DNA of 64,000 bases from Rhodothermales bacterium (lineage in GTDB: Bacteria > Bacteroidota > Rhodothermia > Rhodothermales > UBA10348). Shown piece after piece: positions 15,215-18,542 of this stretch. The stretch spans positions 1 to 64,000 of the forward strand of contig JANQQV010000023.1 in NCBI GenBank assembly GCA_028284865.1, written 5' to 3'. A program made the position numbers and the translations under genes. The notes below the pieces were generated by a model, which worked only from the letters and a program-made list of their open reading frames with translations, did no database searches and was not told the DNA's origin. Position 1 is the first letter of the stretch, and the number at the start of each line of letters is the position of its first letter.

Positions 15215-16186
15215 ATGAACCATTCTACACCTCAATCGAACCCCTCATCGCCAGCCTGGCTTGAAGCACTGTACGCCGAACTGGGCGCCGATCGCGTGCT
15301 CAGAAAGCATGTTCTGGGTCCCTACACAACCTTTCGGATTGGAGGCCCCGCGGACGCGTTCTATGAAGCACGATCCGCTGATGAGTTGGCTGCTGTGCTG
15401 ACGATGGTCCGTACCCTGGACATTCCCCACTTTGTACTGGGGCTGGGCGCCAACATCTTGGTCGGCGATGGTGGATTTCGAGGTCTCGTCATCCGGAATG
15501 CAGCCGACGGCAAAACCATCGATGAAAATGGCATCCTGACGGCAGAGAGCGGTGCCATCGTCTGGCCCGACCTGATCGAATTTGCGGTCGATGCTGGTTT
15601 TTCGGGTATCGAACACTACGCGGGGATTCCATCCACGGTCGGTGGGGCGTTGTGGCAGAATCTGCATTTCCTCGCTCCCGCCCCGGCCCGTGAGCGGACG
15701 ATGTTCATCGATGAAGTCGTGCTGGACGCCCGTCTCATGCACCCGGACGGCACAATCGCCGTGAAGGACCGGGACTACTTCGACTTTGGATACGACCAGT
15801 CGATTCTGCATCACTCTGGAGATATCGTGCTCAGCGCCCGTTTCCAGCTCGAGCCGGCTTCGCCGGAAACCATGCGGCGTATCATTCGAGAGAACCTCGA
15901 CTGGCGCGCAGAACGTCATCCTCCGCTCGACACGGAGCCGAGTGCCGGATCGATTTTCAAGAAGATCGAAGGCATCGGAGCAGGACGCTTGATCGATCAA
16001 TGCGGCATGAAAGGGACACGGATCGGCGGCATCGAAATCACCCATCGCCACGCCAACATCATGATCAATCGGGGCGGCGGAACGGCGGCAGACGTCAAGG
16101 CGATGATTGCACTGGTCATCGAGACGGTGGAGCGTGAGATGGGCTATACCCTGGAGCCCGAAATCGCCTTCGTCGGGGAGTTCTGA
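15215..16186 (+). CDS. murB: UDP-N-acetylenolpyruvoylglucosamine reductase
   Basis: MurB reduces the enolpyruvyl group to make UDP-N-acetylmuramate for peptidoglycan, with FAD and NADPH. The 323-residue protein shows the FAD-binding N-terminus (YTTFRIGGPADAF, GLGANILVGDGGFRGLVI), the PSTVGGAL loop, the proton-donor serine motif PSAGSIFKK near residue 250, and the terminal glutamate region YTLEPEIAFVGEF. The ATG at 15215-15217 is chosen because the longer frame begins with a TTG and has no conserved residues. It is followed after 16 nt by ccmB. Confidence 0.95.
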   Translation: MNHSTPQSNPSSPAWLEALYAELGADRVLRKHVLGPYTTFRIGGPADAFYEARSADELAAVLTMVRTLDIPHFVLGLGANILVGDGGFRGLVIRNAADGKTIDENGILTAESGAIVWPDLIEFAVDAGFSGIEHYAGIPSTVGGALWQNLHFLAPAPARERTMFIDEVVLDARLMHPDGTIAVKDRDYFDFGYDQSILHHSGDIVLSARFQLEPASPETMRRIIRENLDWRAERHPPLDTEPSAGSIFKKIEGIGAGRLIDQCGMKGTRIGGIEITHRHANIMINRGGGTAADVKAMIALVIETVEREMGYTLEPEIAFVGEF

Positions 16187-16202: not shown

Positions 16203-16874
16203 ATGAACTGGATTCGGGGAAGCTGGGCCGTGCTGCAGAAAGATGTGCAGCTGGAGATGCGAAGTCGCTACGCATTGAACATGCTTCTGATGTTCGTGCT
16301 TTCCTCGCTGCTGTTGATCGCTTTTGCCATCGGCCAGGAGTCTGTGAGTGAAAGGATGCAGTCTGCGCTCCTGTGGATCGTGATCCTGTTTTCGGCTTCC
16401 ATCGGCCTGGGGCGCAGTTTTGTAGCTGAAGAAGAGCGCGGAACGGTCCTGCTTTTGCAGCTGAATGTGCCTGGCAGCCAGGTATTCACCGGGAAACTGG
16501 TCTTCAACTTCTTGCTGCTGTTGGCCGTGGACCTGGTATCCCTGGTCGTATTTGCTTTACTGCTGAATATGGTGATCGAGAGCTGGTGGCTCCTGGTACT
16601 TTCGCTGGTACTTGGATCCGTGGGCTTGGCCGGCGCAACGACTTTGTTGGCCGCAATCATCGCACGCGCCTCCAACAAAGGTCCGCTTCTGCCCGTTCTC
16701 CTCTTCCCGCTTCTGATCCCGCTGTTGCTCTCGGTGGTCCGCGCCTCGCGCGCTGCCCTTGAAGGAGGTCTGGGGTTCTCAGGGGCGAGCGGAGATCTCC
16801 AAACCATTGCACTTTTCAGCGGGGTTGTCATTACCGCCGCAGTCCTGCTGTTTGACTATGTTTGGCAGGACTGA
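16203..16874 (+). CDS. ccmB: Heme exporter membrane protein CcmB
   Basis: The 223-residue, six-helix membrane protein is the permease partner of the CcmA ATPase in cytochrome c maturation system I. The N-terminus (VLQKDVQLEMRSRYALNMLLMFVL) is the CcmB hallmark, followed by SFVAEEERGTVLLLQL and several membrane helices. The ATG at 16203 is chosen from this alignment; the longer open frame runs back into murB. Its 3' end is 62 nt before ccmC. No ccmA is present beside it, so the ATPase must be encoded elsewhere. Confidence 0.9.
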   Translation: MNWIRGSWAVLQKDVQLEMRSRYALNMLLMFVLSSLLLIAFAIGQESVSERMQSALLWIVILFSASIGLGRSFVAEEERGTVLLLQLNVPGSQVFTGKLVFNFLLLLAVDLVSLVVFALLLNMVIESWWLLVLSLVLGSVGLAGATTLLAAIIARASNKGPLLPVLLFPLLIPLLLSVVRASRAALEGGLGFSGASGDLQTIALFSGVVITAAVLLFDYVWQD

Positions 16875-16936: not shown

Positions 16937-17647
16937 ATGGATAACACACCTCCTGTGGTCAATGTCCGACGCTATACCGTCATCCGGAATATCATTCTGG
17001 TTTGGGTGACGGTCGTCCTTTTCGCGGCTTTCCTGCTCAACATTCCGAAGATCAACATCCTCGAGCACACGGCGCGGAATCTGTATTTCCACGTGCCGAT
17101 GTGGTTCACGATGATGGCTGCCGTGTTCGTGTCAGCCTATCACTCTTTCCAGGTGCTGCGCTCGGGCGATCTCGTGCGTGACATCCGGGCTCTCCAGGCT
17201 GCGCGCGTCGGCGCTTTCTTTGGGATTCTGGGCCTGGTCACCGGTATCGTCTGGTCGAAATTCACCTGGTACGTCGGAACGGATGTCTGGTGGAATTTCG
17301 ATCCGCGTCAGTCGATGGTTTCCCTGCAGTTGTTGATCTACGGAGCCTATTTCGTGCTTCGTGGCGCCCTGGACGATCCGAGCAAACGCGCCCGCATCGC
17401 CGCCGTCTACAACCTGTTTGCCGCGACCACCACGCCGTTCCTGCTGTATGTAATTCCTCGCCAGATGGAAAGCTTGCATCCTGGTGCAGAAGGCAATCCG
17501 GCGTTCAGCGAAATCACCCACCCGATCATGCGCCTGGTTTTCTACCCGGCCATCATCGGATTCATCGGGCTGTTCTGGGTCATGTACACCCAGCGTGTTC
17601 GCACAGCCCTGCTCAAGTACCGTGTCACCCACGACCCCGAACTCTAA
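16937..17647 (+). CDS. ccmC: Heme-handling protein CcmC (CcmC/CcmF/CcsA family)
   Basis: The 236-residue membrane protein places heme on CcmE at the outer face of the inner membrane. Six hydrophobic helices are visible with the tryptophan-rich signature (SKFTWYVGTDVWWNFDPRQS) between conserved His residues (NLYFHVPMWF and SLHPGAEGNPAF). Length matches short CcmC. The start ATG at 16937 is preferred; the extended frame upstream overlaps ccmB and starts at TTG. The stop overlaps the next start (TAATG), so the ccmD-like gene is coupled to it. Confidence 0.92.
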   Translation: MDNTPPVVNVRRYTVIRNIILVWVTVVLFAAFLLNIPKINILEHTARNLYFHVPMWFTMMAAVFVSAYHSFQVLRSGDLVRDIRALQAARVGAFFGILGLVTGIVWSKFTWYVGTDVWWNFDPRQSMVSLQLLIYGAYFVLRGALDDPSKRARIAAVYNLFAATTTPFLLYVIPRQMESLHPGAEGNPAFSEITHPIMRLVFYPAIIGFIGLFWVMYTQRVRTALLKYRVTHDPEL

Positions 17648-17934
17648 TGGCACTTTCTCCCTTCATCGCGCAAGAAGTCGCGCAGGAAGCCCAGGATCAA
17701 GCCACTCAGGCCACCGCCTATGACAGCGTCTGGGCGGGCGACGCAGTACCAACGCAGGCCCTGTCCGGAATGGAACAGGTCATGCTGTCGAATGACAAGC
17801 TCTATGTGGTTCTGGCCGTCGTTCTGATCATCTGGATCGGAATCGTGATTCTGTTGTTGAGAAACGACAACCGGCTCAAATCCGTGGAACGAACCATGGA
17901 AGAGCGCGGTACCTCGTTCGACGATGGGCTTTAG
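17647..17934 (+). CDS. CcmD-like small membrane protein
   Basis: This 95-residue protein has one membrane helix (about 52-72, LYVVLAVVLIIWIGIVILLL) followed by a basic and acidic helix (RNDNRLKSVERTMEE), the layout of CcmD, which helps release holo-CcmE from CcmC. The N-terminal 45 residues are polar and Gln/Ala-rich and not conserved. Its ATG overlaps the ccmC stop codon, the position expected for ccmD. Sequence similarity in this family is weak, so the call rests on size, topology and place. Confidence 0.72.
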   Translation: MALSPFIAQEVAQEAQDQATQATAYDSVWAGDAVPTQALSGMEQVMLSNDKLYVVLAVVLIIWIGIVILLLRNDNRLKSVERTMEERGTSFDDGL

Positions 17935-18104: not shown

Positions 18105-18542
18105 ATGCGCCCTAAAACAATAGTTGGCCTCGTTCTGATCGTCACATTCACGTCCGTCCTGTTCATGAACTTCGGCCAACAGGTCGGCGGCTACATGAAC
18201 TTCGCCGAAGCCGAAGAATCAGGGACGAAAGCGCACGTAGTGGGCATGTGGGTCGATGCGGACAAATTCCGCTACGACGCAGCCAGCAACATCTTCTCCT
18301 TCCAGATGCAGGATGAGGTCGGCAACATTCGCGAGGTTCGCTACGCGAATCCGAAGCCTGCGAACTTCGAGGACGCCGAGAAGGTCGTGATTGATGGATA
18401 TGCCGAGGGCGACCACTTCGTGGCCGAGAATATTCTCGTCAAGTGCCCGTCGAAATACAACGACGCCACGGGACTTCAGGAGTACGAAGAGTTCGAATAC
18501 CAGGCAGGAACGCCGGTTGAAGCTACATCAGCGACGAATTGA
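18105..18542 (+). CDS. ccmE: Cytochrome c maturation heme chaperone CcmE, CxxxY type
   Basis: The 145-residue protein has an N-terminal membrane anchor (TIVGLVLIVTFTSVLFM) and an OB-fold periplasmic domain with AHVVGMWVD and VVIDGYAEGDHFVAENILVKCPSKYND. CcmE binds heme covalently and passes it to apocytochromes. Classical CcmE uses His in an HxxxY motif; here the same position reads CPSKY, the CxxxY variant described for Desulfovibrio and some archaea. The start ATG at 18105 precedes RPKTIVGL. The 170-nt gap after the ccmD-like gene contains inverted repeats (TTGATC-TCAG-GATCAA at 18011-18026 and an imperfect hairpin near 18042-18061), so ccmE may have its own promoter or leader. No ccmF, ccmG or ccmH follows. 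Confidence 0.88.
   Translation: MRPKTIVGLVLIVTFTSVLFMNFGQQVGGYMNFAEAEESGTKAHVVGMWVDADKFRYDAASNIFSFQMQDEVGNIREVRYANPKPANFEDAEKVVIDGYAEGDHFVAENILVKCPSKYNDATGLQEYEEFEYQAGTPVEATSATN

Follow-up and report, generated by a model that had tools for sequence, protein, structure and literature searches.

A Cys-type CcmE in a Rhodothermales bacterium and its probable place in System I*

System I* is known as a form of the Ccm (System I) pathway of cytochrome c maturation in which CcmE carries a cysteine and CcmH is often, though not universally, absent (PMC3601427). CPSKY was the commonest Cys motif in that study (25 of the 36 bacterial genomes examined), and CcmH was present in about one third of the bacteria with the variant CcmE. 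The study names delta-proteobacteria, chloroflexi and firmicutes; the string "bacteroid" occurs nowhere in its text. The Desulfovibrio Ccm set was found to be functional in E. coli (PMC3601427). Goddard 2010, for System I* of Desulfovibrio, and Allen 2006 are cited through PMC3601427, PMC9084895, PMC3884852 and PMC4429474. In Methanosarcina acetivorans, CcmE needs its Cys for heme binding, and CcmABCEF suffices (PMC9084895). The CcmE of D. vulgaris was found to bind ferric heme noncovalently through Cys, unlike the CcmE of D. desulfuricans (PMC3884852).

The ccmBCDE cluster and its CcmE

The stretch of DNA analysed here (the window, 64,000 nucleotides) contains four consecutive cytochrome c maturation genes. 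The features are as follows.

16203-16874, plus strand: ccmB, for the membrane part of the ABC complex CcmAB (PF03379, E 3e-25; TIGR01190, 2e-14, below cut-off)
16937-17647, plus strand, ATG at 16937: ccmC, for a WWD-domain protein that handles heme and loads CcmE (PF01578, 1.1e-12; TIGR01191, 3.8e-18, below cut-off)
17647-17934, plus strand: gene for a ccmD-like small membrane protein, CcmD_alt (PF20077, 1.6e-9, above cut-off; TIGR04391, 0.0047, below cut-off)
18105-18542, plus strand: ccmE, Cys-type heme chaperone of 145 aa with an N-terminal membrane helix and an OB-fold domain (PF03100, E 2.5e-13)
18444-18458, plus strand: CPSKY codons, C114 to Y118, the heme-binding motif as read from the sequence

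The order upstream of ccmE is ccmB, ccmC and the CcmD_alt gene, whose ATG overlaps the ccmC stop. The open frame of ccmB begins at 16107, and the ATG at 16203 was taken as its start. The window CcmE scored 50.6 bits against PF03100 (cut-off 24.6), which places it in the family. The cysteine codon of its motif is 18444-18446, in the context ILVKCPSKYND. In PDB comparisons, C114 lies opposite the heme-binding His of E. coli CcmE (8ce8_E, 1sr3_A). D. vulgaris CcmE (2kct), a weak match (E 0.14), has its Cys at this position. The AlphaFold2 model (mean pLDDT 76.4, pTM 0.57; residues 126-145 unreliable) shows a helix at 3-26 followed by a strand-rich domain, which fits a membrane-anchored OB fold. 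Three PDB entries matched the model at E <= 0.001, all of them CcmE; 2kct ranked ninth. The CPSKY motif is unchanging across 24 aligned Rhodothermales CcmE. A preliminary description of the locus had reported a CxxxY CcmE beside ccmB, ccmC and a ccmD-like gene, and the open reading frame, profile matches and alignment all agree with this.

Similar clusters are seen in relatives. Among 26 relatives, with several loci cut by contig ends, ccmC stands beside ccmE in 25, ccmB is present in 24 and mgtE follows in 23. No CcmF match was found near ccmE in any of these 26 loci, some truncated as stated.

The rest of the pathway in the genome

The draft genome that holds the window, 97.7% complete, consists of 28 contigs with 3,481,060 bases in all. 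A PF03100 search of the whole draft showed no second CcmE, so the sole CcmE of the genome carries CPSKY in place of the HxxxY of classical System I. The counter-case, a second ccmE of HxxxY type with a full ccm operon elsewhere, was thus looked for and not found. Profile searches of the window contig (C18) detected no further cytochrome-assembly, CcmH or CcmA match, which bears out the earlier statement that ccmA, ccmF and ccmH are out of reach of this cluster.

Two proteins of the genome match PF01578: the window CcmC and an 818-aa CcmF on contig C4. Since nothing else matches this profile, there is no System II CcsA, and the genome does not qualify as System II. Near the CcmF gene are what look like genes for subunits of phenylalanyl-tRNA synthetase; no ccm gene adjoins it. 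Residues H190, H277, H321 and H538, which we take to be the heme-ligand histidines, are all at invariant columns in ten aligned CcmF. CcmF of the phylum runs on for about 150 profile positions past the region alignable with Thermus CcmF (6zmq); an example is L004:7706-10162 (minus strand).

The assignment of CcmA is less direct. Of 41 stretches matching TIGR01189, the highest score, 124.3 bits (cut-off 131.6), belonged to an ATPase gene standing alone at C3:34928-35509; this candidate scores slightly higher against drrA. An operon-encoded CcmA also falls below the TIGR01189 cut-off, at 110.8 bits. With an operon-CcmA profile, made of six ATPases encoded beside ccmB in other families, the frame C3:34823-35536 scored 214 bits, and the runner-up 113. 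Of 60 genomes from the order, 55 have a single such protein at E <= 1e-30. The C3:34823-35536 ATPase is accordingly taken as the CcmA orthologue on sequence grounds. A truly missing ccmA was considered as a novelty and dropped, being overruled by the operon-profile match and by the one-per-genome orthologue in the order. No ATPase-like frame precedes ccmB/ccmC among the plus-strand frames of L026, L028, L034, L036 and L037 (L037 shows no ccmB), and a tblastn search of the 26 relatives' loci with the candidate as query gave no match.

PF03918 found no CcmH in the genome, which departs from classical System I and is common in System I*. The same search was positive in the controls E. coli, Caulobacter, Thermus and Deinobacterium; Methanosarcina acetivorans was negative, as expected for a Cys-type organism, and positive in the CcmE search. 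A profile of the divergent CcmH-like domain (A3) had no match in the window genome either. Hence, of the two genes to be sought in the genome, ccmF was located on another contig, and ccmH was not found by PF03918 or by the divergent profiles. In the listed genomes of the order, PF03918 detected no CcmH, and PF03100 gave one CcmE match each. A protein at C17:207469 was tried as CcmH and rejected, as profile A1 of divergent CcmH-like proteins matched its zinc-ribbon part only. The same protein (L219:5813-6994, minus strand) has zinc ribbons, a membrane helix and repeats read as TPR-like, and is unlinked to ccm genes. As the genome is a draft, a CcmH or another CcmE may have been missed.

Substrates are present: the genome has 11 PF00034 matches, and CXXCH was seen in all eight of the loci read. 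CcmB, CcmC and CcmF of System I* are in place, with CcmA assigned by orthology at a score below the TIGR01189 cut-off. As judged from sequence, the CcmABCDEF set is complete but scattered over three sites: the window holds ccmBCDE, ccmF lies by the phe-tRNA synthetase genes, and ccmA stands alone.

Cys-type CcmE and CcmH-like proteins across Bacteroidota

PF03100 matched 264 of the 392 genomes of the phylum that were searched. We read 126 CcmE loci, made up of the 26 Rhodothermales-type relatives and 100 of the 264 positive genomes (30 + 30 + 40), the latter spanning all 51 families with a CcmE match by hand count of the family labels. CPS[KR]Y was present in 126 of 126 loci (CPSKY 125, CPSRY 1) in this count, which takes no more than one match each from G062 and G294. 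A His-type motif was seen in none of the 126. The motif had been called rare, which does not hold for this phylum; with a Cys-type CcmE in every locus sampled, the variant is not peculiar to the lineage. The whole phylum appears to use Cys-type CcmE. Searches of open-licence papers showed no prior publication of this for Bacteroidota lineages; the phylum-wide extent may be new, as a modest extension of a known system.

In four loci, a second CcmE-like frame without CxxxY adjoins ccmE on the same strand.

L054:441-800, minus strand: CcmE-like frame without the motif
L127:3581-3958, minus strand: CcmE-like frame without the motif
L136:3609-4034, minus strand: CcmE-like frame without the motif
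L143:3594-3974, minus strand: CcmE-like frame without the motif

Gene order varies over the phylum. In 40 phylum-wide loci, CcmF adjoins CcmE in 25, and a ccmA homologue stands beside ccmB in 6. The CcmC and CcmF profile matches overlap in these loci, both being cytochrome-assembly proteins, and the two were told apart by length. Within this sample, the nine loci from the order to which the window belongs never have CcmF beside CcmE, and in other families ccmA, ccmB, ccmC, ccmE and ccmF are grouped together.

PF03918 matched 12 of the 392 genomes, five of them above cut-off. Ten of the 12 matching proteins share a CxCGxC...CxC domain behind a membrane helix (CVACGVC in one), and most of these ten carry zinc ribbons in front of the helix, an architecture that looks unrelated. 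The matches in G076 and G355 resemble, by eye, a histidine kinase in one case and a TPR protein in the other. A profile of the shared domain matched 15 of 392 genomes, 13 of them strongly, and left 377 without a match. Given so few matches to either profile, most of the phylum lacks any detectable form of CcmH.

The CcmH-like CxCGxC...CxC domains of L213-L218, most of them joined to zinc ribbons and a membrane helix, lie within islands read as heavy-metal efflux, with an RND-type pump of about 1065 aa and MacB-like ABC genes. Two examples are given.

L214:7008-7814, minus strand: CcmH-like domain
L215:6899-7720, plus strand: CcmH-like domain

A CcmF-like gene shares the island in L214 and in L215 (L215:11560-13953). 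These CcmF- and CcmH-like proteins possibly serve a metal-related or separate cytochrome use.

Assignment and comparison with known systems

The system in the window very probably belongs, as an ordinary case, to System I*, the branch of the Ccm pathway with a Cys-type CcmE and no CcmH. We infer how the steps follow one another, and their chemistry, from published studies of Desulfovibrio and Methanosarcina. Heme would be loaded onto C114 of CcmE by CcmC, acting together with CcmD and the CcmAB ATPase, on the outer side of the cytoplasmic membrane; Y118 is likely to ligate the iron. From holo-CcmE the heme would go to CcmF, and CcmF would join it to CXXCH apocytochromes with no CcmH taking part.

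A maturation route new to Rhodothermales, run by CcmB, CcmC, CcmD and CcmE alone, would explain why clusters of the ccmBCDE type in the window and its 26 relatives have no neighbouring CcmF match. We give this next to no credence, as it is contradicted by the CcmF and the CcmA orthologue of the same genome and by other families of the phylum, where the Cys-type set is grouped with ccmF and in some cases also with ccmA. Because ccmF and ccmA lie on other contigs, their local absence reflects a gene order of this bacterial order and not loss or a new route. It is also highly improbable that a divergent CcmH, missed by Pfam, works with CcmF, which would make the system classical System I apart from its Cys CcmE. 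The known occurrence of CcmH with variant CcmE in about a third of bacteria (PMC3601427) agrees with such a reading, and a divergent CcmH-like domain is real in 13 of 392 genomes (strong matches), most below the PF03918 cut-off. The domain profile, however, matches neither the window genome nor 377 of the 392 genomes, and in the six islands read the domain sits among metal-efflux genes and not next to ccmB or ccmE; a CcmF-like gene is nonetheless present in two of the six.

Membership of System I* is therefore our preferred assignment. The preliminary description had suggested a variant maturation route in this lineage: a Cys-type, CcmH-less variant of System I it is, but not a lineage-specific one, since it corresponds to the published System I* (PMC3601427). 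A broader proposal, that CcmABCDEF is the standard and sufficient machine in Bacteroidota and that the long C-terminal part of CcmF replaced CcmH in presenting the apocytochrome, is one we regard as unlikely.

The window itself encodes an ordinary housekeeping pathway. What the survey corrects is the impression of rarity: across this major phylum, System I seems by default to have a Cys-type CcmE and to lack CcmH. Tractable bacterial hosts such as Flavobacterium could serve for the questions of how CcmF works without CcmH and how the CcmE-Cys-heme bond is undone.

The present case agrees with published System I* in each respect testable here. As in Desulfovibrio System I*, CcmH is absent and CcmD is present; there the genes form one ccm operon, whereas here they are scattered. 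With E. coli System I (CcmABCDEFGH; CcmE 1sr3, 8ce8) it shares the CcmE OB fold, CcmB, CcmC and CcmF, but E. coli has HDENY (His130) where CPSKY is found here, and has CcmH where none was found here. The Ccm system of Methanosarcina acetivorans is similar in its CXXXY CcmE, in CcmABCEF without CcmH and in its several loci (PMC9084895); it differs in that CcmF is a single polypeptide here and two-part there, and in the CcmD-like protein, which is present here and has no counterpart there.
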